Shown piece after piece: positions 35,538 to 63,425 of a DNA stretch of 64,000 nt. Within the stretch, counting starts at the first letter, position 1. The number at the start of each line of letters is the position of its first letter. The notes under the pieces are model-generated. The model saw nothing but the letters and a program-made list of their open reading frames with translations, was not told where the DNA came from and did no database searches. The stretch comes from Rheinheimera lutimaris (GTDB lineage Bacteria > Pseudomonadota > Gammaproteobacteria > Enterobacterales > Alteromonadaceae), in the NCBI RefSeq assembly GCF_013283795.1, contig NZ_JABSOD010000005.1, forward strand, positions 62,001 through 126,000, in the 5' to 3' direction. The translations under genes and the position numbers were made by a program.

Positions 35538-35698
35538 ATGACGAGTGACACGCAGCTGCGCTGCCGGTGACTCGCGACTTCGTCGCTAGTGACGAGTTGC
35601 CAACGACAACAGTGACAAGCGACCGCCAGCATAGCTGGCTTGTTACTGCTTGCAAAGCAAGCTCGTTACTGTTCGCAACGCGAACTCGTCACTGCCGT
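35538..35698. repeat. Stem-swapping hairpin array R1 (ugd-galU gap)
   Basis: Six palindromic units separated by GTNAC-containing linkers: GCAGC-TGC-GCTGC, GCGAC-TTC-GTCGC, GTTGCC-AAC-GACAAC (one mismatch), GCCAGC-ATA-GCTGGC, GCTTGC-AAA-GCAAGC and GTTCGC-AAC-GCGAAC. Linkers are of the form TCGTTACT or TAGTGACG. The array fills the space from just after the ugd stop to just before the galU ribosome binding site. Confidence 0.92.
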
Positions 35699-35702
35699 TA
35701 CC

Positions 35703-36875
35703 TTAATCGCTACCAAATAAATCACGGGTGTACACTTTTGCTTCTACATCGGCTAAAGCGTCACTGCGGCGGTTTGCTACTATTACATCAGATATGCGTT
35801 TAAATTCAGCTAAATCTTTAATCACCCGCGAGCGGAAAAACTCATCCTGTTGTAGTTCCGGCTCATACACCACCACTTCAACACCTTTGGCCTTAATGCG
35901 TTTCATAATACCCTGGATGGCCGAAGCACGAAAATTATCTGAGCCGGATTTCATTACCAAACGAAAAACCCCGACCACATGAGGGTTACGGGACAATATA
36001 GACTCCGCCACAAAGTCTTTGCGGGTGCGGTTTGCATCCACTATCGCTTGCATTATGTTGTTTGGTACATTCTGATAGTTGGCCAGCAACTGCTTGGTAT
36101 CTTTGGGCAAACAGTAACCACCGTAACCAAAGCTGGGGTTGTTATAATGGCTGCCAATGCGCGGATCCAGGCCTACACCTTCAATAATTTGCCTTGCATT
36201 TAAGCCATGGCTTTCAGCGTAGCTGTCCAGTTCGTTAAAATACGCTACCCGCATTGCCAGGTAAGTATTAGAAAACAGCTTAATGGCTTCGGCTTCAGTG
36301 CTGTCGGTAAACAATACCGCTATGTCTTGCTTAATGGCGCCCTTTTGCAATAAGGCAGCAAAACGCTGTGCCCGCTCACTTTGTTCGCCGACAATAATTC
36401 TTGACGGGTACAGATTATCGTACAAGGCGCGGCCTTCACGCAAAAACTCCGGCGAGAATATCAGATTATCAGTACCAAATTTCTGCCGCGCAGCAACCGT
36501 AAAACCGACCGGCACAGTAGATTTAATGACCATTACCGCCTTAGGGTTAATAGCAAGCACATCACGGATCACCGCTTCAACACTATTGGTATTAAAGTAA
36601 TTTGTTTGCGGATCGTAATCGGTGGGTGTGGCAATAATAACAAAGTCAGCATTGCTGAATGCCTGCTTATCCAGCGTAGCGGTAAAATTCAGCGCTTTAT
36701 TAGCCAGAAAATCCGAAATTTCTTTGTCTTCAATCGGCGATTTTTTCGCATTCAGCAGTGCTACTTTTTCCGGCACGATATCCAGCGCGACCACTTCATT
36801 GTGTTGCGCAAGTAACATGGCATTGGACAGCCCGACATAACCGGTACCGGCAATAGCAATTTTTAAACCAGACAT
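35703..36875 (-). CDS. ugd: UDP-glucose 6-dehydrogenase
   Basis: 390 residues. NAD motif GTGYVG at 10-15 with D32, the catalytic cysteine C255 in [14 protein letters not shown], the SPEFLREG block at 141-148 and K-containing NPSFGYGG. It oxidises UDP-glucose to UDP-glucuronate in two steps. Short form (about 390 residues) common in enterobacterial capsule loci. It is followed by galU, which supplies its substrate, and its stop lies just before array R1. Confidence 0.95.
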
Positions 36876-36892
36876 AACATCCCTTTTTTGAG

Positions 36893-36981
36893 TTTTAAGT
36901 TGTGCAATATAAGTTGTGAGTGTTAAGAGGTGAGGTGTAAATTGTTAGTTAAACACTCACCACTAAACACTAAACACTCAA
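36893..36981. repeat. Heptamer array with inverted halves (MBL-ugd gap)
   Basis: The right part, AACACTCACCACTAAACACT and AAACACTCA, follows the NCACTNA heptamer. The left part contains the complement (GTGAGTGTT at 36916-36924), so GTGAGTGTT can pair with AACACTCAC. The array begins in the stop codon of the MBL gene (TGA, 36978-36980). Confidence 0.85.
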
Positions 36982-38417
36982 TCCTGGCTGGCAATAATAG
37001 CACTGATCCCCAACTCGGAAAAAGCCCGTTGTAACGCTGTTTTGGCGCCTTTATCACCGTGCACTATGCGTACCTGCAGCGGTTTTCGCCGCATCCGGCT
37101 GATAAAACTTACTAAACCGGTTTTATCAGCATGGGCTGAATAGCCACTTAACGTAATAATTTCAGCGCCAATACTAATGCGCTCACCGTCTATATCGACA
37201 TAGCCGCCCTGCGGGCCAAAACGTTGTATTGCAGCACCCAAAGTACCGCGCGCCTGATAACCGACAAACACCACCTGATGCGCAGCATCCGGCAATAAGG
37301 CTTTTAAATAATTTACGACCCGGCCGCCCTCACACATACCGCTGGCAGCAATCACAATAGCCGGCTGTTTGCTGCGCGCCAAAAATTGCACCAAATCCAA
37401 ATGTTGAGTGTGGCTGTCTACGGTATGCAGCTGGGCAAAACTCAGTGGATGGCGGCCTTGCTTTAAACGCTGTTTGGCTTCACTGTCCCAACACTGTTTC
37501 AGCTCATCGTAAGCACGGGTAAATTTTGCCGCCAATGGCGAGTCGACAATAATCTGCAACTCATCCCAGCGTAACTGCCGGTGAATTTTTTGCCCGCGCA
37601 AGCGGTGAATAATTGCCTCCAGCTCATACAACAGCTCTTGAGTGCGGCCAATACTAAAAGCCGGAAACAACACAGTACCGTTGTCTTGCAGAGCGTGCAG
37701 CAGCACCTGTTCTAAGCGTTTTATCCGGGCACGGCGGTTATCGTGTTCGCGATCACCATAGGTGCTTTCTATTACTACCACATCTGCCGCATAAGGTGGC
37801 TTGGGCGCGGGCAGCAAGGGTGCATAGGGGGCGCCCAAATCGCCGGAAAACACCGTTTTAAACCAACTGCCGGCCGGCGTTTTATGCCGCAGCTCTACAT
37901 AGGCCGAACCCAAAATATGCCCGGCACTCTGAAACCGTAGCTCTGGCCCGGCATTGGCCCGGTTTGAAGCCGTGCCGCTAAATACCGGCAATGGCTGCCA
38001 TTGTTTAAAATCACAAGCCACCAACTGGCGGCGCACCCTGGCTAAAAAGGCATTAATTAATGCCTCATCACGGGTAACACCTACCTTTAACGCATCCTCC
38101 AGCACCAGCGGTAATAACGTCGCCGATGCCGCAGTACAAAATATCGGCCCGGTAAAGCCGGCAGCCAGCAAATACGGTATGCGCCCTACATGGTCAATAT
38201 GCACATGAGTAACAATCAGCGCTTTAATATGCTCAATAGCAAAGTTAATTTGCGGCGCCACAGCAGAACCTGAGTTTGATACCTCAGCGCCCTGAAACAA
38301 GCCGCAATCAATAAGTACGCCGTAGTCATCGGCTAAACGATACTCATGGCAAGAACCGGTAACACCATCTACAGCGCCATGGTGGATAAATTGAGGGGTG
38401 GGGTATAAAGTCGACAT
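36978..38417 (-). CDS. Metallo-beta-lactamase / beta-CASP / RMMBL protein (RNase J/CPSF-like)
   Basis: 479 residues. The metal site HVHIDH is at 71-76; further motifs are FSGDLG, VIESTYGDREHD (beta-CASP start), SGMCEGGRVVNYL and the C-terminal SGYSAHADKTGL and VHGDKGAKTAL of the RMMBL domain. This YSH1/CPSF-73-like architecture occurs in RNA-processing nucleases. Bacterial members near polysaccharide or phosphate genes are poorly characterised. It is the only nucleic-acid-type enzyme of the locus apart from the antiterminator and the HEPN toxins. Its last codons run directly into the heptamer repeat. Confidence 0.9.
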   Translation of the reverse strand: MSTLYPTPQFIHHGAVDGVTGSCHEYRLADDYGVLIDCGLFQGAEVSNSGSAVAPQINFAIEHIKALIVTHVHIDHVGRIPYLLAAGFTGPIFCTAASATLLPLVLEDALKVGVTRDEALINAFLARVRRQLVACDFKQWQPLPVFSGTASNRANAGPELRFQSAGHILGSAYVELRHKTPAGSWFKTVFSGDLGAPYAPLLPAPKPPYAADVVVIESTYGDREHDNRRARIKRLEQVLLHALQDNGTVLFPAFSIGRTQELLYELEAIIHRLRGQKIHRQLRWDELQIIVDSPLAAKFTRAYDELKQCWDSEAKQRLKQGRHPLSFAQLHTVDSHTQHLDLVQFLARSKQPAIVIAASGMCEGGRVVNYLKALLPDAAHQVVFVGYQARGTLGAAIQRFGPQGGYVDIDGERISIGAEIITLSGYSAHADKTGLVSFISRMRRKPLQVRIVHGDKGAKTALQRAFSELGISAIIASQD

Positions 38418-38431
38418 CCGGTGTCCTTATT

Positions 38432-38574
38432 TAGTGACTCGCGACTTTGTCGCTAGTGACGAGTTGCCAGAGGCAACAGTGACAAGTGACAAGTGACCGC
38501 CAGCATAGCTGGCTTGTTGCTGTTCGCACCGCGAACTCGTTACCTGTCACTGCCTGCAAAGCACGCTAGTCACG
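38432..38574. repeat. Stem-swapping hairpin array R2
   Basis: Five palindromes: GCGAC-TTT-GTCGC, GTTGCC-AGA-GGCAAC, GCCAGC-ATA-GCTGGC, GTTCGC-ACC-GCGAAC and GCCTGC-AAA-GCACGC (one mismatch). Linkers contain GTNAC; one linker is tandemly triplicated (GTGACAAGTGACAAGTGAC). It supplies the stop codon of the four-helix-bundle gene at 38570. Confidence 0.92.
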
Positions 38575-38911
38575 CTTTCAGTTTTCGAACTAATCCCTTC
38601 AACAGCATGAAGACTTCTTTAGTTTTATTTAGCTGCTCACTCACATCAGCCACATAATTTAAGCGCTGCGCGATCAACAGCTGGGTTTCCAACTCACTTA
38701 AAGAACCGCGTGAAATTGTTAAGAAACGCAAAAAGTCAGCATTACTTTCACGACCAGCTCCTTCAGCTATGTTGCTGGGTACAGACACCGCTGCACGCTG
38801 CATTTGCGAGCCCAGACCATACTTTTCGCTATCAGGAAACTGCTTAGTAACCGCATAAACCTGAACCACCAAATCCATGGCCAATTGCCACACTCTTAAA
38901 TCATAGTGCAT
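38570..38911 (-). CDS. Four-helix bundle protein (23S rRNA intervening-sequence type)
   Basis: 113 residues, all helical. LRVWQLAMDLVVQVYAVTKQ, then FPDSEKYGLGSQMQRAAVSVPSNIAEG (given in part) and FLRFLTISRGSLSELETQL are diagnostic of the TIGR02436 four-helix-bundle family, first found in 23S rRNA intervening sequences and common in intergenic spaces. Function is unknown. Flanked by hairpin arrays R2 and R3, it sits like a one-gene insert between the MBL and phosphoglycosyl transferase genes. Its TGA stop lies inside a GTCAC linker (minus-strand GTGAC) of R2. Confidence 0.9.
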   Translation of the reverse strand: MHYDLRVWQLAMDLVVQVYAVTKQFPDSEKYGLGSQMQRAAVSVPSNIAEGAGRESNADFLRFLTISRGSLSELETQLLIAQRLNYVADVSEQLNKTKEVFMLLKGLVRKLKA

Positions 38912-38931
38912 GTATAAATCCTTTTTAAAAA

Positions 38932-39054
38932 CGGTGACGAGCTGCTTGCGCAGCAGTGACCGCTCGCATAGCGAGCTAGTGACCGTCGGCTAAGCCGACT
39001 AGTTACCGCTGACGTAGTCAGCTAGTCACCGTTCGCATAGCGAACTAGTCACTG
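38932..39054. repeat. Stem-swapping hairpin array R3 (most regular)
   Basis: Five units, four of them with an exact 23-base period: GCTGC-TTGC-GCAGC, GCTCGC-ATA-GCGAGC, GTCGGC-TAA-GCCGAC, GCTGAC-GTA-GTCAGC, GTTCGC-ATA-GCGAAC. The last four are each followed by an eight-base linker of the type TAGTNAC(C/T). All four regular stems are perfect although their sequences differ. It supplies the TGA stop of the 39049 gene. Confidence 0.95.
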
Positions 39055-39606
39055 CTTTTTAACTCTGTCACCTGAGCCCTTACCGGCCACTGTCATAAAA
39101 ATATACTTAAAGTAGTTTGCTACCGTAAGCTGTGCCAGCATTTTTGCGTCGGTCTCGGCCAGCAGCTGCGGGGTCGACATATCAATGTCATTTACCTGTG
39201 CCAGGCCGGTAATACCGGGCCGGGCATTTAATACACCGCGCTGTTCGCGCTCGTTAATTAATTCTTGCTGGTTAAACAGGCAAGGCCGCGGGCCTACCAG
39301 GCTCATTTCGCCTTTTAATACATTCCACAACTGCGGCAGTTCATCCAGCTTGCTCTTACGCAAAAAGCCACCAAAAGGCGTTATCGCACTGCTGCTGGCC
39401 AAATGGCTGGCAACATGAGCCGTATCCGGTTTCATAGTGCGAAATTTTACCAACGTAAACGGCTTTTTATGCCGCCCTACCCGCTGCTGGCGAAATATCG
39501 GCGAGCCGGTATCAAACAAACCAACAATAGTTAAGATAACCAGCACCGGAAAACCAAACACCAAGCCACAAAAAGCAAAAATAATATCCAACAAACGAAT
39601 CAGCAT
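39049..39606 (-). CDS. Phosphoglycosyl transferase (undecaprenyl-phosphate sugar transferase)
   Basis: 185 residues, a minimal PglC-type monotopic phosphoglycosyl transferase. An N-terminal re-entrant helix (about 1-27) is followed by [29 protein letters not shown] (the Asp-Glu catalytic dyad) and LVGPRP. It should start repeat-unit assembly by placing a sugar phosphate on undecaprenyl phosphate, most likely the 6-deoxy-HexNAc made by the WbpM-like enzyme and the 41549 reductase. The short tail SGDRVKKQ ends at a TGA that lies in array R3. Confidence 0.92.
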
Positions 39607-39625
39607 AGAACCTCAAAATAAAAAA

Positions 39626-39774
39626 TAGTGACGATGCGGCATAGCCGCAGGTGACGAGCTGCTTCGCAGCAGTGACCGGCCTAAAGGGCTTGGTGACCGC
39701 TCACATAGCGAGCTTGTTACCGGGCGCAAATGCGCGCCCCTACACTAAACACTCACAACTCAACACTAACTACT
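39626..39774. repeat. Hairpin array R4 joined to a heptamer array
   Basis: Five palindromic units (TGCGGC-ATA-GCCGCA; GCTGC-TTC-GCAGC; GCC-TAAA-GGGC; GCTCAC-ATA-GCGAGC with a mismatch; GGGCGC-AAAT-GCGCGCC) are separated by GTGAC or GTTAC linkers. From 39742 the sequence changes to heptamers (ACACTAA ACACTCA CAACTCA ACACTAA). The heptamers supply the TAG stop of the HEPN gene at 39766. Confidence 0.9.
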
Positions 39775-40230
39775 GTACTTAGCAGCAAAGCGAATTACAT
39801 GCTCCAGACTCTGCAATAACTGGTCAGCCATATCAAAAGCTTTATTAAGTAATGCTGACTGAATTTCAGGATCATCAGGGTAATCATGGGCAAATTGGTT
39901 ACGCATTTCACGCAGCTTCAGCCACTGCTCAACAGAGTCCAGCGCACCAATCTTTTCAAGCCGGTTCAATTTATCAATAAAGGTATTAAGTTCACCTTCT
40001 TCATGCGTTAACTCTATTATTGCAGGCAGTAGCTTTGCGCCCATAGCATCCTGCAATTTAGAAAACCTGACAATAAACTGGTCAAACACCGCAAGTTCAA
40101 TATCCGTAAGCTTCGACAAACGCGCCGCAGTAAATGGCTTTTTGTCAGCCAAATGCTGCATAGACCAGCGCAAACGCTCTGCATGTGTCAGGCAGATATC
40201 AACTATGCCCTTAAATACCGCCTTATTCAT
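39766..40230 (-). CDS. hepT: HEPN-domain toxin of a HEPN-MNT pair (first module)
   Basis: 154 residues, all helical. The diagnostic HEPN RNase motif R-N-x3-H-x-Y is present as R110 N111 QFA H115 D Y117 in REMRNQFAHDYP. In characterised HepT toxins this motif cuts RNA or tRNA, and the tyrosine is the target of adenylylation by the MNT antitoxin. The gene overlaps the upstream MNT gene by four bases (ATGA). Gene order is antitoxin then toxin. The stop codon lies in a heptamer repeat. Toxicity is inferred from family. Confidence 0.85.
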   Translation of the reverse strand: MNKAVFKGIVDICLTHAERLRWSMQHLADKKPFTAARLSKLTDIELAVFDQFIVRFSKLQDAMGAKLLPAIIELTHEEGELNTFIDKLNRLEKIGALDSVEQWLKLREMRNQFAHDYPDDPEIQSALLNKAFDMADQLLQSLEHVIRFAAKYSS

Positions 40231-40529
40231 AAACGAATACCAGTCTCTTTGGCAATTTTATAGATTGGTAAAACGGTGCCAGCCTTACGATTTATCACCA
40301 GATCAATTTTCTGCTCACCAAGTGCCATATGCAATTCAACCAAAGCATTAAGTCTGGCCTCAACAATATCGTCAGCGGCACGTAACTCAGGCTCAATGTA
40401 AAGATCAATATCCCCACCACGGGCGTTGTCGTCAGCTCTGGAACCGAAAAGCCGCAGCTCGGAACCTTTACCAAAGTGTTTTAACAGCACTTGCTTAATA
40501 ATTTCTTGTTGCTGATCAGTCAGACGCAT
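40227..40529 (-). CDS. mntA: MNT-domain antitoxin nucleotidyltransferase (first module)
   Basis: 100 residues. The minimal nucleotidyltransferase motif is complete: LFGSRADDNARGGDIDLYIE gives G-S-x10-D-x-D. Members neutralise HEPN toxins by adding AMP units to their tyrosine. The HEPN gene directly follows with a four-base overlap. The start ATG at 40529 has AGG upstream. Together the two make a complete, apparently intact module within the polysaccharide locus. Confidence 0.88.
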   Translation of the reverse strand: MRLTDQQQEIIKQVLLKHFGKGSELRLFGSRADDNARGGDIDLYIEPELRAADDIVEARLNALVELHMALGEQKIDLVINRKAGTVLPIYKIAKETGIRL

Positions 40530-40592
40530 AACTTAACCTCCTTAGCCCACCGCACCAAGTTTAACCAGCTAACAAGCTTTTAGCCACAGCCC

Positions 40593-40630
40593 TAACCATT
40601 CACAACTAAACACTAAACACTCAGCACTAC
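40593..40630. repeat. Heptamer array between the two HEPN-MNT modules
   Basis: About five heptamers (CACAACT AAACACT AAACACT CAGCACT) preceded by degenerate ones. It supplies the TAG stop of the MNT gene at 40627. Confidence 0.8.
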
Positions 40631-40935
40631 AATGCGCGCTGATAAAACACCTTACCAAAATCCGCTATATGTCTTTTCAGATCTTCTGATAGCAGCTGAT
40701 GATACACAGAAACATCCATCAAATACGGCGTATTCAACTCATCCAACTCACGCATAACAAGACGCAAAGTATTTTCGTCGCAGGATAGCCCTAGCAACGT
40801 CAGATCAATATCTGAACCAGGCCGGTAGTTTCCCTTAGCTCTGGAGCCATACAGTATCACCTGCTCAATTTCCGGGTGACGGGCAAAAACACCTAGCAGC
40901 TTAGCTACAGTTAACTCCGGCAGCCCGTGGCTCAT
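40627..40935 (-). CDS. MNT-domain antitoxin nucleotidyltransferase (second module, HI0073-like)
   Basis: 102 residues. The nucleotidyltransferase motif is LYGSRAKGNYRPGSDIDLTL (G-S-x10-D-x-D). The C-terminal part MDVSVYHQLLSEDLKRHI is typical of HI0073-like proteins that pair with HI0074-like substrate-binding HEPN proteins. It overlaps its partner by four bases but is downstream of it, opposite to the first module. The stop is provided by a heptamer repeat. Confidence 0.88.
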   Translation of the reverse strand: MSHGLPELTVAKLLGVFARHPEIEQVILYGSRAKGNYRPGSDIDLTLLGLSCDENTLRLVMRELDELNTPYLMDVSVYHQLLSEDLKRHIADFGKVFYQRAL

Positions 40936-41336
40936 AGTAATGGCTGCATACGAATAGCCAGCTCAGATAACGCCGGAGCATAAGCTTGCTGTACTTTGGC
41001 AAACTCCTGTTCTAAAACACGTTCATCATAGGTATGCACTGTACGATTTCTACTCTCAATCATGTCCATCCAAACCTGTCCATCACTAACCAATCCAAGC
41101 GAAAAGGCTAAACGACTGGCAGAGCGGGAACCGGTAATGCCCTGGTGCCCCTCATACTCAAGATAATCTTTCAGTACTTTCCAAGCCAGTTCATGAGTAA
41201 ACTCAAAACGTTGTAAAATACCTTCTTTTATCAGCGCTTCAGCGCGTTCATCGTGCTGTGATAATGCAGAAACCAGCTGCCCAAGGGCTTTCTGATAGTT
41301 TTGAAACCGCTGATGCCAACGAACTTCTTCACCCAT
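40932..41336 (-). CDS. HI0074-like HEPN protein (second module)
   Basis: 134 residues, matching the nucleotidyltransferase substrate-binding family TIGR01987: FQNYQKALGQLVSAL, GILQRFEFTHELAWKVLKDYL, GSRSASRLAFSLGLVSDG. The HEPN RNase motif R-N-x3-H-x-Y is present as R96 N97 RTV H101 T Y103. It is therefore a likely second toxin rather than only a structural partner. It precedes its MNT partner with a four-base overlap. It belongs to a different subfamily from the HEPN protein at 39766. Confidence 0.88.
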   Translation of the reverse strand: MGEEVRWHQRFQNYQKALGQLVSALSQHDERAEALIKEGILQRFEFTHELAWKVLKDYLEYEGHQGITGSRSASRLAFSLGLVSDGQVWMDMIESRNRTVHTYDERVLEQEFAKVQQAYAPALSELAIRMQPLL

Positions 41337-41388: not shown

Positions 41389-41485
41389 GGCACAACATTA
41401 AGCACTCAACACTAACCACTGAAAACTCAACCCTCAGCACTAACCACTAACAACTCAACACTTAGCACTCGTCCTAACCACTCTC
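41389..41485. repeat. Longest heptamer array
   Basis: More than ten heptamers of the form NCACTNA in a row, for example ACACTAA CCACTGA and GCACTAA CCACTAA, with the CACT core sometimes changed to AACT or CCCT. It fills the gap between the HI0074-like gene and the array R5, in the same strand sense as the other intergenic heptamer arrays. Confidence 0.88.
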
Positions 41486-41498
41486 CACCTTTGAAAAC

Positions 41499-41577
41499 CG
41501 GTCACCGTTGCTAAAAGCAACTAGTCACCAGCCGCATTCTGCGGCGAGTCACTTGTCACCGCTGTTAAAGCAGCGAG
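41499..41577. repeat. Stem-swapping hairpin array R5 overlapping a gene end
   Basis: Three palindromes: GTTGCT-AAA-AGCAAC, GCCGC-ATTCT-GCGGC and GCTG-TTAAAG-CAGC, joined by GTCAC linkers. The last unit lies inside the 3' end of the reductase gene at 41549 and encodes its final residues RCFNSGDK; the TGA stop is part of a linker. Confidence 0.88.
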
Positions 41578-42484
41578 CAATCCCCTCTTCCACCGTTATC
41601 GGCGGCGTCCAACCCAGCGTTTGTTTTGTATGACTGATATCTACCTGTAAATTTCCACACAACCGGTCAATTACCGCAGATTTGCCGGTCAGCTTACCGG
41701 CCAGTTTAAGCCAACTTACCGGCACCGGAAGCAACCTTGGCTTTTTACCGACGGCGCGAGTCATCATTTGCAGTAATTCAGCGGTAGATACATCCTCGTC
41801 GTCGCTAACCAAAAAGGTTTGGTTTGCGGCTTTGGGGTGATCAATACAGGTAACAATTAAATCGACCAGGTTATCCAGTGCCACCAGGCTGCGCTTATTA
41901 TGGATAGCGCCTAACGGTAGCGGCAGGTTTTTCTGTGCAAGTTTAGCAAGCTTACCAAAGTTACCCGGTGCATTGGCGCCATAAACCAGCGGCGGCCTTA
42001 TTATGACTACTTCCATACCGGTATCAGCCGCAATTTGCCTGAGGCCAATTTCAGCTTCAAGCTTCGATAGCGCATAATCTTCTACCGGCACTGGCGTGTC
42101 AGTTACCTTAAAAGGCTCAGTACTGTTGATACCATTTACGCCAATAGAGCTTAAAAAGATAAAACGCCGTACTCCCGCATCAGCCGCCGCCCTTGCTATA
42201 TTTAGCGAAGCCTTCGTATTTAGCTCTCTGAATTCAGTTAAAGATGCATCGACAACATGAGCTTTAGCAGCAATATGGATCACAATATCAGGCTGATATA
42301 AATGAAACAGACTTGCGTCAATATCTGACAGGTCAGCAACCTCTGTCTGTTGTAGTCTCGGCAAAGTGCTATCAGAGAGCGCTTTACGCACAGGCGCCGT
42401 TATAGTGACGTCAGTTTGTATAAGCGCATCCAACACTGCGCGACCAACAAAACCGGACACACCTGTCAGCAAAATATTAGTCAC
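41549..42484 (-). CDS. NAD-dependent epimerase/reductase of UDP-6-deoxy-HexNAc synthesis
   Basis: 311 residues, extended SDR. N-terminal GVSGFVGRAVLDAL (8-21), then catalytic YALSKLEAE (Y-x3-K) and FLSSIGVNG. The pattern fits WbpV/WbpK-like or WreQ-like 4-reductases or epimerases that follow a WbpM-type dehydratase to give UDP-FucNAc or UDP-QuiNAc. The link is inferred from gene company; a UDP-GlcNAc C4-epimerase is possible. The final eight residues are encoded by array R5. It overlaps the GT2 gene by eight bases. Confidence 0.82.
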   Translation of the reverse strand: MTNILLTGVSGFVGRAVLDALIQTDVTITAPVRKALSDSTLPRLQQTEVADLSDIDASLFHLYQPDIVIHIAAKAHVVDASLTEFRELNTKASLNIARAAADAGVRRFIFLSSIGVNGINSTEPFKVTDTPVPVEDYALSKLEAEIGLRQIAADTGMEVVIIRPPLVYGANAPGNFGKLAKLAQKNLPLPLGAIHNKRSLVALDNLVDLIVTCIDHPKAANQTFLVSDDEDVSTAELLQMMTRAVGKKPRLLPVPVSWLKLAGKLTGKSAVIDRLCGNLQVDISHTKQTLGWTPPITVEEGIARCFNSGDK

Positions 42485-58878: not shown

Positions 58879-61647
58879 TTAAAACGAATTAAGCGCAGCG
58901 ATGGTAATAGCACTCTGATAAAAAATCTGTGTCACTTGTGACCACAAACTTAAGCTGTCTTTATACTCGGTATCCAGCGGTACAATAACGGTGTCGCCCG
59001 GTTTTAACTGATCACTGGATACAGCAAACCAACCGGTGTTAGGCACCATAACCGAACCGTCTGCGCGGATAACATAGGTACGATCGCCATCGGCGCGTTT
59101 ACGCAGGCCACCCGCCAGGTTTAAGTACTCATCCAACGATAACCTTGCATCAAACCTGTGGGTACCGGCATGTTGCACTTCGCCCAGTACAGTAACAGCA
59201 CGGTTTAGCCGGGGCACAAATAAACGATCACCATTTTCTACCGTCATATCGTAAGCCGGGTTAGCCGCCATAACTTGTTCGAGGTTGATAACCAAACGCC
59301 CCATTGGCTGCAGTTTTTCAAGCTCTTCAATCATTTTCATTGCGTCGGCAGGCGTAATGTTAGCCCGCTCTGCGGATAAGGCACGGGTTGCTACATCAGA
59401 CTTTAATTGCTCAACCAACTTGGCATATTGCATTATCTCTTTTTCTTTTACCTGCTCGCGGGTAAACACCGAGCCAAATACAAAAGCACTGTTAGTTACC
59501 CCTCCGGCGCGGGCGATAACCTGTGATAGAGTTTCACCTTGCTGAATAATATAGGTGCCGGGGAAGCGCACTTCGCCCTCAATGAGTACTTCACGTTTGT
59601 CTTGCCAACCCGGGGTACTGAATACATTTAAGCGGTCACGGTTGTGTAAGGCAATATTATCGTTACCGCCAAGTAAGGCCTGCTGCAGGTTAATATTGAT
59701 ATGCTGCACGCTGATACCATTTTGCTGCGTATTCTGACGTACTGTGCGGCTAAGCTCGGCACGGCTGATATAGGTGGCATCGTTTAAGCCGCCGGCGGCG
59801 TTGATAAGGTCTGCTACCTTAGCATTGCGGGTAAGCGGGTATTCACCAGGTACCCGCACCGCACCGGTAACGGAGATCAGCGCCAGGTTGTTATCTACCC
59901 GCGCCTGCATTTTTAACTGTTTAAGCACCGGATATAATAATTCTGTACGACTAAGGTGCTGGCTTAACTGCAGCTTGTCGTTGTCACTAAAGATGTCATT
60001 AAACAGGTTTTTCAGCTCAGCAAGCAGTAAGTCATCTTGCTGTGTTTTGCTTAATACTGCCCCTTCCGTAGTTGCTGCTCCGTTGGCGGGTGCATCTGCA
60101 ACTATTAATTGCGGCGGCAAATCAGCGGCCTGCACTTTTTCCAGCGCTGCGTTTGATAAATCCTGCATTAACCAGCGTTGGTCTTGGTTATCGTCTATTT
60201 TTGCCAAAATAGTATCGCGCAAATATTGGTTAAGCTTATTGCGGCTATACATTTGGTCGGCGTAGTGAAACAGCAGCACTTTATCGCGTGGCGCCAGTTG
60301 CAGATCATGTGCACTACCGGGCGCAGCCAGCGCTTTGGCCGGGCTAAAATGCAGCAACTCACTGATAGTACCGGGCGTAGCTTCACGCACGATTAAGGCA
60401 TAATTAAGCTCTGCTGTTGGCAGTAAATCTGACCAATGGTGGCGGATTAAATCGGTAATTCTGATGCCGTCATGCCAGGCATAAAACCCTGGTCGCGTTG
60501 CAGCACCAGCGACAATAATTTGATTTTGAATTTGTGTTGATGCCGCCGCGATGCGCAGTACATCACCGTTTTGCACCGCTTGTTGTTGTACCGTGCTGTT
60601 GGTCAGGTCAAGGTTTTGCAAACTGCGGGCATTATTGCTGAAACGCTCTAATACTGCGGTACGCGAAGAAGCTCCGGCGGCGGCTCCGCCGGCCATACCG
60701 AGCAGGCTACTAAGGGTATCAGTGGGCTTTAATTCATAAAGGGCCGGCCGTTTTACTTCGCCTTTTACTTCGGCCATGGCTTTTACCGGCGCAACAAAGA
60801 CGACATCGCCGTTTTGCAAATGGATATCGCTGCGGCTATCGCCACGTAACAGTAAATCGTACAGGTCGAATTCGCTTGCCGTTTTACCGGCGCGCTTTAC
60901 GGTAATTTCACGCAGGCTGCCAATATCGGATACACCACCGGCAACAAACAACGCCTGGGTAACAGTAGTAAGCGCTGACACAGCATAAGCGCCCGGGTAT
61001 TTAGCCTCGCCTACGACAAAAATATTAATGGTGCGCAGCGGCCCCATACTTACGGCGGCTTCAACGCCGATAATGCTTTGGCGTACACGCTCAGTAATTA
61101 ACTCCCGAGCCTGATTAAAGCTTAAACCACCAACGGTAACCGGGCCAACATCCGGAATTACAATACGGCCGTCGCGGTTAATACTGAGCATTAATTCTGA
61201 GCTTTGTTTGCCGTACAGCTGTATTTGTAACTCGTCATCAACGCTGAGGATATAATTGTCCGGCACCGGCATTACCGACACCGGGGCAAAGGTGCTGATA
61301 TTGGCATCAAATAAGCTTAAGCCAAAACGTTTCGGCTCAGTTGACTTCTTTTTGCCGTCCATTTCCATTTCAGCCAGCAACTCAGCTTCCCGGCGGGGTT
61401 GATTAAGCTGCTGCGGAGTGCTGTTTTTGTCCACCAGACCGGTTGAGCTGCTGCCGTTTTGTTGCAGCATGGCCGGGTCGATGCCATATTGCCGCGCCAA
61501 ACGCTCTTGCTCTGCGCGCGGTAACATTTTGAATTGCTCCAGCATTGCCGGCGATATGGCCTGAGCAACTGCCGCTAAAGGTGCCAGGGCAGCCATGCTG
61601 ACCGTTAGCGTTAGTAGAAGACTTTTTACAAATTTAAGCACCCGCAA
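58879..61647 (-). CDS. Large outer-membrane polysaccharide exporter (Wza-like, multiple SLBB domains)
   Basis: 922 residues. Signal peptide MRVLKFVKSLLLTLTVSMAA, ending near VAQA at residue 30; no lipobox is visible. The polysaccharide-export domain (about 125-215, with DDELQIQLYGKQSSELMLSI) is followed by about five or six SLBB domains (for example IFVVGEAKYPGAYAVSA, ISVTGAVRVPGEYPL, VLIEGEVRFPGTYII, VTVLGEVQHAGTHRF). It is more than twice as long as E. coli Wza. It forms the periplasm-spanning export channel. It is the first gene after the ops leader. Confidence 0.92.
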   Translation of the reverse strand: MRVLKFVKSLLLTLTVSMAALAPLAAVAQAISPAMLEQFKMLPRAEQERLARQYGIDPAMLQQNGSSSTGLVDKNSTPQQLNQPRREAELLAEMEMDGKKKSTEPKRFGLSLFDANISTFAPVSVMPVPDNYILSVDDELQIQLYGKQSSELMLSINRDGRIVIPDVGPVTVGGLSFNQARELITERVRQSIIGVEAAVSMGPLRTINIFVVGEAKYPGAYAVSALTTVTQALFVAGGVSDIGSLREITVKRAGKTASEFDLYDLLLRGDSRSDIHLQNGDVVFVAPVKAMAEVKGEVKRPALYELKPTDTLSSLLGMAGGAAAGASSRTAVLERFSNNARSLQNLDLTNSTVQQQAVQNGDVLRIAAASTQIQNQIIVAGAATRPGFYAWHDGIRITDLIRHHWSDLLPTAELNYALIVREATPGTISELLHFSPAKALAAPGSAHDLQLAPRDKVLLFHYADQMYSRNKLNQYLRDTILAKIDDNQDQRWLMQDLSNAALEKVQAADLPPQLIVADAPANGAATTEGAVLSKTQQDDLLLAELKNLFNDIFSDNDKLQLSQHLSRTELLYPVLKQLKMQARVDNNLALISVTGAVRVPGEYPLTRNAKVADLINAAGGLNDATYISRAELSRTVRQNTQQNGISVQHININLQQALLGGNDNIALHNRDRLNVFSTPGWQDKREVLIEGEVRFPGTYIIQQGETLSQVIARAGGVTNSAFVFGSVFTREQVKEKEIMQYAKLVEQLKSDVATRALSAERANITPADAMKMIEELEKLQPMGRLVINLEQVMAANPAYDMTVENGDRLFVPRLNRAVTVLGEVQHAGTHRFDARLSLDEYLNLAGGLRKRADGDRTYVIRADGSVMVPNTGWFAVSSDQLKPGDTVIVPLDTEYKDSLSLWSQVTQIFYQSAITIAALNSF

Positions 61648-61706: not shown

Positions 61707-61718
61707 CACGCTACCGCC
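61707..61718 (-). promoter_or_regulatory. ops element
   Basis: Read on the minus strand this is GGCGGTAGCGTG, identical to the E. coli ops sequence that pauses RNA polymerase and recruits RfaH. It lies 60 bases upstream of the exporter start codon, right after an RfaH-like gene. It should permit read-through of the long downstream operon. Confidence 0.93.
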
Positions 61719-61740
61719 ATTAGGTTACAGCACCCTAATG
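61718..61740 (-). promoter_or_regulatory. Hairpin abutting the ops element
   Basis: Read on the minus strand, CATTAGG and CCTAATG form a 7-bp stem with a nine-base loop. The last base of the 3' arm is the first G of the ops element. This places the stem about ten bases upstream of the expected pause position. Confidence 0.7.
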
Positions 61741-61766
61741 CCTGATGGTGTGAAACCTTGTTATTT

Positions 61767-61875: not shown

Positions 61876-62400
61876 CTAACCGCCGGTATTGTTTTTAACC
61901 GCTATTTGGCTGTTGTCTACAGCCGCCTCTACCCACTGCCCCAGCATGCTGATTAAAATGCTGCTGCGTTTATCGCCATCGGCGCTACTAAACACTGCCT
62001 GTAACCCACTGAACGGGCCGTTAACTATGCTTATTTCGTCACCTTTTTTCAGCGAAGTATCTTGCGGCTGTTGTTTCAGCTGTATTTGTTGCTCGGTAAG
62101 CAGCTGAATAAGCGCTGCCGGCACCCGGGCTAACTGTGCACCAAAGCGGACAAAATCGCTAATGCCGCGGGTAGCACGAATGGCACTGATATTCAGCTCC
62201 TGCCCGACCGGCAGATGTAAAAACAGATAACGCGGAAACATCGGCTCAGTGCTCTGCAGCCATTTATTACCACGCAGCTTTTGCTGCGTTATTTGCGGCA
62301 AAAATGAGCCGTAGCCCTGATTAGCCAGCTGTTGCTGCGCCCGTAACTCTTGCCGCGGTTTGCAATATAATAAATACCATTGTTTGTCGGCTGCATTCAC
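61876..62400 (-). CDS. rfaH: RfaH-like transcription antiterminator (NusG paralogue)
   Basis: 175 residues from a GTG at 62400, which overlaps the rmlB stop by four bases (GTGA). The longer frame from 62430 lies inside rmlB and is rejected. NusG N-terminal domain: [46 protein letters not shown]-terminal KOW domain: [20 protein letters not shown]. It presumably acts at the ops element 160-170 bases downstream of its gene. Specialised NusG paralogues of this kind occur inside capsule loci. Confidence 0.93.
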
Positions 62401-63425
62401 CGGGCAAAACCCGGCTGCTGCAAATACCACTGTACGGTACGACGCAGCCCTGCAATAAAGTTATGCTGCGGCTGCCAGTTTAGTGCAGCCTGAATTTTGC
62501 TGCTGTTTATGGCATAGCGTACATCGTGGCCGGGACGGTCCTGCACATAAGTTATTAGTGATGAGTGTTTAGTGTTTAGTGGGTAACCACGCTGGTGCAT
62601 AGGGGAAAATTCATCCATTAATTCACAGATGGCTTTGACAACCTCTATATTTTTTTGTTCGTTATGACCGCCGATATTGTAGCTTTGACCCACCTCAGCA
62701 CAGTTTAGTACCTGCCATAACGCCTGCACATGATCTTCTACGTACAACCAATCGCGTATTTGTTCGCCGTTACCATATACCGGTATCGGTTGCCCGCTTA
62801 AGGCTTTGCTGATGGTATTGGGGATCAATTTTTCGGCGTGCTGCCAGGGGCCGTAGTTGTTTGAGCAGTTAGTAATAATAACCGGCAAACCATAGGTGCG
62901 GTGCCAGGCGCGTACCAGATGATCACTGGCGGCTTTGCTGGCAGCATAAGGGCTGCTAGGCGCGTAAGGCGTTTGCTCGGTAAATGCCGGTGCAGCGGCT
63001 GTGGCCAGATCGCCGTACACTTCATCAGTAGAAATATGCAAAAAGCGAAATTGTTGTGCTGTCGGCCCGGACAGCGTTTGGAAGTAGTGACGGCTTACTT
63101 CGAGCAACTGAAAAGTACCATTGATATTGGTTTCGATAAACCCGGCGGCACCGGCAATTGAACGGTCGACATGGCTTTCTGCCGCCAGATGCATAATTGC
63201 CGTTGGCTGATACTGTGTAAACACCTGCTGCAGCGCAGCGGCATCGCAGATATCCAGTTGCTTAAAATGATAACGCGGATTACCGGCAATCTCTGCCAGA
63301 GCAGCAGGATTAGCGGCATAGGTTAGTTTGTCCAGATTAACAAGCTGATGTTCAGTATGTTGCAGCAGATAACGAATTAATGCCGAGCCGATAAAGCCGC
63401 AGCCGCCGGTAATCAGAATTGTCAT
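62397..63425 (-). CDS. rmlB: dTDP-glucose 4,6-dehydratase
   Basis: 342 residues from the ATG at 63425, overlapping the rmlD stop by four bases (ATGA); the reading from 63494 lies inside rmlD. Motifs: [49 protein letters not shown] (Y-x3-K), NCSNNYGP, and [19 protein letters not shown]. Residues 282-291 ([10 protein letters not shown]) are encoded by a heptamer repeat in the region between the substrate domain helices. It makes dTDP-4-keto-6-deoxyglucose. Confidence 0.95.
62555..62582. repeat. Four heptamers inside the rmlB coding sequence
   Basis: Exactly four units TTAGTGA TGAGTGT TTAGTGT TTAGTGG on the plus strand. Its sense relative to transcription is the opposite of the intergenic arrays, so the coding strand carries CACTAAACACTAAACACT and no in-frame stop arises. 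It encodes rmlB residues 282-291. Confidence 0.85.

Follow-up and report, generated by a model that had tools for sequence, protein, structure and literature searches.

The rmlB gene of Rheinheimera lutimaris carries within its reading frame an array of seven-base repeats belonging to a family of heptamer arrays (unit ACTNANN) that is interspersed through the genus. The array lies within a permissive, length-variable loop of RmlB, and its core is probably held by the same force that shapes the intergenic arrays. We show its membership of the family, the taxonomic pattern, the presence of two heptamer phases at the loop, and a core that is held at silent positions while variable positions drift.

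The heptamer array in rmlB and its intergenic relatives

The features below are numbered on the window, by which we mean the whole 64,000-nucleotide stretch of contig NZ_JABSOD010000005.1 analysed here.

62397–63425, minus strand: rmlB, encoding dTDP-glucose 4,6-dehydratase of 342 residues (TIGR01181, 478.1 bits, cut-off 365.1; solved relatives PDB 1bxk and 1g1a)
62546–62580, minus strand: heptamer array inside rmlB, ACTAAAC ACTAAAC ACTCATC ACTAATA ACTTATG (profile, 5 units, 36.9 bits)
62550–62600, minus strand: type-A loop of RmlB, 17 residues (276–292), common to 10 of 31 genomes of the genus
36887–36949, minus strand: intergenic heptamer array facing the 36948–36982 array, ACT sense on the message (37.0 bits)
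36948–36982, plus strand: intergenic heptamer array at the 3' end of gene 36978–38417, with an exact 20-mer in common with rmlB (41.0 bits)
39720–39743, minus strand: GTAG-tagged palindrome adjoining a heptamer array, with a close copy in the RmlB C-terminal loop of genome G022
39744–39778, plus strand: heptamer array at the 3' end of gene 39766–40230 (34.9 bits)
40591–40632, plus strand: heptamer array at the 3' end of gene 40627–40935 (44.6 bits)
41397–41473, plus strand: heptamer array downstream of gene 41549–42484 (81.9 bits)

An earlier sequence-only reading had placed four perfect-period heptamers at 62555–62582 in the rmlB frame, encoding residues 282–291, and the sequence, coordinates, frame and residues are all exact (coding-strand codons, on the minus strand, CCA CTA AAC ACT AAA CAC TCA TCA CTA ATA). 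Tandem Repeats Finder reports 62555–62581 with a period of 7, 3.9 copies, 85% matches and 0% indels, in agreement with a perfect period, though the units differ from each other. The presence of a heptamer array inside rmlB is thereby confirmed. It does lie in the sense free of in-frame stops, as had been proposed, and it is flipped relative to the four plus-strand arrays; the sense is not unique to rmlB, however, as the 36887–36949 array is also on the minus strand.

Arrays were scored with a profile trained on those of the genus (the plus-strand arrays of the window plus 40 loci), the training set leaving out the window rmlB array and taking in the rmlB inserts of genomes G019 and G021. With this profile the rmlB array scores 36.9 bits and the other arrays of the window 34.9–81.9 bits. 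Sixty 64-kb windows simulated with a first-order Markov model peak at 21.9 bits, and 18 other open reading frames of the window do not exceed 12.2 bits on either strand. None of 20,000 synonymous recodings of the rmlB loop attains 36.9 bits, the best reaching 30.2. These Markov and synonymous nulls were used in place of a reversed-sequence control, which is uninformative since reversed arrays still match the profile. A 20-mer of the rmlB array is found exactly at 36961–36980 on the opposite strand (0/100 shuffles). A single-sequence AlphaFold2 model of RmlB has a pLDDT of 37, too low to use.

The family unit, ACTNANN, consists of a core, ACTNA, and variable positions 4, 6 and 7; by position the profile has A, C or T, T, A or C (G 0.01), A, any base but mostly A, and C or A. 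A search with a three-heptamer pattern, allowing two mismatches or fewer, gave 14 overlapping matches in 6 arrays of the R. lutimaris genome (13 matches and 5 arrays being inside the window) and 0 control matches. Matches are present in 23 of 30 congeners as opposed to 2 of 29 other relatives. The rmlB array has the head-to-tail 7-base units beyond chance that define interspersed heptanucleotide arrays, and the genus has the dispersed, mainly intergenic copies, few of which (the 6 arrays) are in this genome. Arrays with the same core also occur in other phyla, in at least 120 stretches, 80 of which were examined; facing same-core pairs are seen in distant phyla (L163, L167, L172, L178, L198, L202, L206, L212 and others), and the hairpin layout is thus not restricted to this genus.

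The layout of arrays relative to genes was determined in the window plus 40 loci chosen for holding arrays or rmlB, counting only long open reading frames as genes. This set has 101 arrays of at least 25 bits, 94 of them outside rmlB, and 73 of the 94 have all adjacent genes on one strand. Those reading AGTG on the message are at a stop codon in 42 of 47 instances, and those reading ACT on the message are directly upstream of a start in 21 of 26. Adjacent arrays no more than 60 nt apart are ordered with the AGTG arm before the ACT arm in all 15 pairs, a count that takes in the rmlB pairs of G019 and G021. The AGTG sense has a stop codon in almost every heptamer, and it is a plain consequence of this that genes end in heptamer phase, with 36 of 41 AGTG-sense arrays that overlap gene ends at 5 or 6 mod 7, and the other five at 1 or 4. 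Selection for stop codons was rejected as the cause of the core, as both array senses have a nearly identical profile. Folding of the intergenic pair at 36870–36990 is not better than that of shuffled sequences (z -0.85).

Several other features lie near these arrays. Tandem 23-base hairpin units with GTGAC/GTCAC heptamer-like linkers, whose stems differ yet stay complementary, occupy 38930–39060, where several hairpins form when the minus strand is folded (z -4.94, 0/200 shuffles equal), and pieces resembling these units are found near 35638–35695, 38440–38560 and 39620–39720. The far end of the polysaccharide cluster (38570–41336), where the arrays lie, also encodes a 23S rRNA-intervening-sequence-type protein (PF05635) together with two pairs of nucleotidyltransferase type, matching PF18765 (weakly in one), PF08780 and, below threshold, HEPN, and between arrays at 36978–38417 is a metallo-hydrolase with beta-CASP and RMMBL domains, by which it is predicted to be of RNA-processing type; genes like it adjoin arrays in several congeners. 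Downstream of rmlB (61707–61743, 61876–62430, 58879–61647) are a NusG-domain gene, possibly RfaH-like, then a sub-threshold JUMPstart and a polysaccharide export gene. The JUMPstart, at 22.9 bits against a gathering threshold of 35, is the only Rfam match in 34000–64000.

RmlB loops across the genus

The sequence-only reading had named presence in this lineage alone as the outcome that would bear it out, and the survey of the genus shows otherwise: ten of the 31 genomes carry the window loop, designated type A, and as these fall into three distinct regions of the RmlB tree, the loop is old. All ten type-A loops start MH[QEK], with small changes, and score 26.7–43.1 bits. In eight more genomes of the genus the corresponding site of RmlB is occupied by other loops that are likewise encoded by heptamers. 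Type B is present in G005 and G017 (41.9 and 58.4 bits), type C in G003, G015, G023, G025, G028 and a second G005 copy (16.7–37.3 bits, G028 and the G005 copy being weak), and type D in G019 and G021 (39.4 and 46.0 bits). Overall, the loop scores at least 24 bits in 18 of 29 genomes analysed. When all 31 genomes were searched in translation with a query derived from the RmlB loop, 12 of the matches listed fell in a stop-free open frame of more than 300 amino acids, and every one of these 12 is at rmlB.

The remaining loops have other contents. No array is present in eight congeners with 11-residue loops (2.1–5.1 bits) or in 19 RmlBs from outside the genus (6.5 bits or less). The G010 loop has 14 unrelated residues (3.3 bits), extra RmlB copies in G019, G020, G023 and G028 score 6.2 bits or less, and the G022 loop, which scores 15.2 bits, carries at this site the GTAG-tagged palindrome listed above. 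In another family of the order, the RmlB loop of L026 (genome G054) reads SCRYSREGGNPDG, which is typical of translated REP-like palindromes and may be one; if so, this would be a third kind of repeat at the RmlB loop. The segment had been expected to vary in length, and it does, spanning 7–26 residues in the RmlBs measured (45 of 53 caught by the pattern). It had also been noted that 28 bases could not have been accommodated without accompanying changes, consistent with a net gain of 3 residues relative to the 11-residue loop of the eight congeners.

The L of the residues LIT lies at heptamer position 2 in types A and B (12 rows) and at position 5 in types C and D (8 rows), and the two phases indicate at least two origins of the array at this loop. 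At another site of RmlB, after DLPHPAD, a further in-frame heptamer insert is found in G019 and G021, containing both arms of an inverted pair; all seven of its codons are identical between the two genomes, yet this is so in 11 of 285 windows of that gene pair. In G021 rmlB (L117, 2679–2761) both arms are translated within one protein, and the insert RNA is predicted to fold like a ladder, its short steps separated by internal loops of 2 bases (z -2.80, 2/200 shuffles equal).

Probably an intergenic array was copied or expanded into rmlB in the stop-free sense; heptamers came to fill the loop on at least two occasions, differing in phase, and in two species they also fill a second loop of RmlB. 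At the protein level the array would be expected to act as a neutral loop filler. Alternatively, the array may have grown by slippage in place from resident codons around LIT-H-V, its likeness to intergenic arrays coming from the same local mutational habit. In its favour, the LIT codons of types A and B are in heptamer phase, and G018, G020 and G009 have the same unit, ACTCATC, as both heptamer 3 and heptamer 4. Against it, the LIT codons misfit the heptamer in the 8 array-free congeners listed (-4.9 bits or less in seven, 2.2 in one), the family consensus is present in heptamers 1 and 2, and slippage leaves the silent-site constraint described below unexplained. We regard it as rather unlikely.

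In an RmlB tree built quickly from 53 rows without the loop columns, type A appears in three places, and holding it as one clade is rejected (p-AU 0.008). One interpretation, which we consider doubtful, is that type A was spread by an old exchange of rmlB segments between lineages, the array itself being under no special constraint. Consistent with this, carriers in the other two clades are 73–86% identical in DNA to the window rmlB in three 20-codon windows over the loop and 40–81% elsewhere, with non-carriers at 25–73% in the same loop windows. However, loss in several lineages gives the same tree, and a recent exchange cannot explain the core, since silent sites beside the array are not conserved and variable sites within it drift. 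The type-A loop is either ancestral and often lost, or was transferred between rmlB genes long ago. As to the proposal that the arrays are mobile or spreading, mobility finds no backing in a clean pair of empty and filled sites, none being found among the rmlB loops of the genus, where loops with and without the array differ by replacement and not by simple addition; spreading is likely, given the two phases and the second insert site in two species. Slippage in place or exchange between rmlB genes may instead be the source of the array.

Silent positions and the force on the core

In the three type-A lineages, codon identity within the array is 0.795 of same-residue comparisons compared with 0.448 at amino-acid-matched columns (0/20,000 resamplings), whereas the five codons before the array are ordinary (0.575 versus 0.553). 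The same residues encoded by unrelated codons, which would have made the match a coincidence, were looked for and none were seen; on the contrary, the codons are conserved. Comparing sequences that recur in several comparisons, so that the counts are not independent, silent core (ACTNA) sites differ in 6 of 192 comparisons across divergent type-A lineages, silent variable sites of the array in 69 of 160, and other rmlB third positions in 5293 of 9594; for four near pairs, the silent differences are 1 of 24 (core) and 10 of 20 (variable). Conservation at 11 silent sites tracks the information in the profile (rho 0.64, p 0.03). Silent sites also conform to the core in 59 of 60 instances in type A (21.1 expected) and 28 of 30 in type C (13.8 expected), and in 15 of 15 in type B (6.7 expected) and 15 of 17 in type D (8.3 expected), the frame in B and D having been picked as the highest-scoring one, a choice biased towards conformity. 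In the type-C loop codons are on average no more conserved than elsewhere (0.56 versus 0.50), although its silent differences are fewer in the core (19 of 75) than at variable positions (32 of 60).

The rmlB array thus seems to be held as nucleic acid, and not as peptide alone. That the residues were selected for the protein and fell by accident into heptamer-like codons is exceedingly improbable, being contradicted by the recoding, codon-identity, silent-site and core-conformity tests and by the loop survey, with no test in its favour. We suggest that the force shaping the intergenic arrays also holds the rmlB core. It would not be stop selection, because the two array senses have nearly one profile, nor local RNA structure, because none is present at the rmlB array (z 0.39). 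The most likely force would be recognition of the heptamer by a putative nucleic-acid-binding partner, or else homogenisation with other arrays. We tentatively propose a sequence-specific partner, protein or RNA, that would read ACTNA at 7-base spacing, with the rmlB copy being one site, maintained through silent positions of an enzyme gene in the polysaccharide locus, that would fade in genomes from which the partner and the remaining arrays have gone.

Homogenisation, in which gene conversion or slippage exchange with the arrays of the same genome would restore the rmlB core in the absence of any function, the variable letters coming from varied donors, is a tentative alternative. Donor arrays have the same core and vary at positions 4, 6 and 7 as rmlB does, an exact 20-mer is common to rmlB and a distal array, and RmlB loops are sharper in array-rich genomes. 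But in seven of the ten type-A loops T occupies position 6 of heptamer 3, a letter with a frequency there of 0.07–0.08 in intergenic arrays, making wholesale copying unlikely, and changes in length of 7 bases would break the rmlB frame. Neither does the make-up of the rmlB heptamers track that of donor arrays, as comparison of four letters with the other arrays of the same genome in 13 genomes gave no significant result (lowest p 0.09). The rarity of this T in possible donors gives a slight lean toward recognition over homogenisation.

Genomes with more array matches elsewhere have higher loop scores (rho 0.81, 29 of 31 genomes), a relationship resting on only 4–5 independent pairs and not significant across those. 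The array-free G028 has the weakest type-C loop and the array-poor G026 the weakest type-A loop, whereas G027, with 7 matches and a short loop, counters the trend. We treat this link as a lead and not as a result.

Known repeat families and significance

Arrays of heptamers, arrays that overlap the ends of genes, and repeats within open reading frames are all of known kinds (PMC4679880, PMC4692102, PMC3733652). The TAACTGA direct repeats of Beggiatoaceae, some Cyanobacteria and Bacteroidetes form short, mostly intergenic heptamer arrays (MacGregor 2015, PMC4679880). As with ACTNANN, one sense, with a stop in each of the three frames, occurs at gene ends, and the other is inside a few open reading frames; unlike ACTNANN, related heptamers are rare and the repeats are mostly just 5' of start codons in BOGUAY, and the sections of that account considered here present no recurrent host gene or silent-site test (PMC4679880). 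The rmlB array is not a member of that family, its unit being ACTNANN.

Arrays of GGGAATC or GGGGA(T/C)T are described between aligned genes in Xanthomonas and Nostoc, some as inverted-repeat pairs in Xanthomonas, and like ACTNANN are near a stop codon on one strand and near the upstream side of a gene on the other, but are G-rich and quadruplex-forming (PMC4692102). The ACTNANN arrays follow this strand rule, one sense at stops (42/47) and the other before starts (21/26), a likeness of layout and not of membership. The ACTNANN profile has no G-tract on either strand, and is therefore not of the quadruplex-forming class; with a core lacking a run of G, the strand layout does not need quadruplexes.

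GTAG/CGTC-tagged REPs and Rickettsia RPEs are translated in frame within functional proteins, REP ends often provide the stop codon of the neighbouring gene, and recB of two Xanthomonas species has REPs at about one site; unlike heptamer arrays, REPs are palindromes linked to RAYT transposases (PMC3733652). The palindrome in the RmlB loop of G022 is of this tagged kind. The window rmlB array is of neither class, having one arm only and no fold. In the open-access literature we found no account describing the ACTNANN family, naming RmlB as a host that recurs, or showing constraint on silent sites in arrays of this sort, and a search with five literal 14-base family strings returned one unrelated paper and none relevant.

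Heptamer arrays are scattered in many bacterial genomes without an agreed role. An in-frame array constitutes a natural experiment, in which the genetic code gives an internal neutral standard for the heptamer, and one enzyme loop, that of RmlB, has taken up different repeats in different lineages. That the core is held while the variable letters drift points to a force that acts on the heptamer at the level of nucleic acid.
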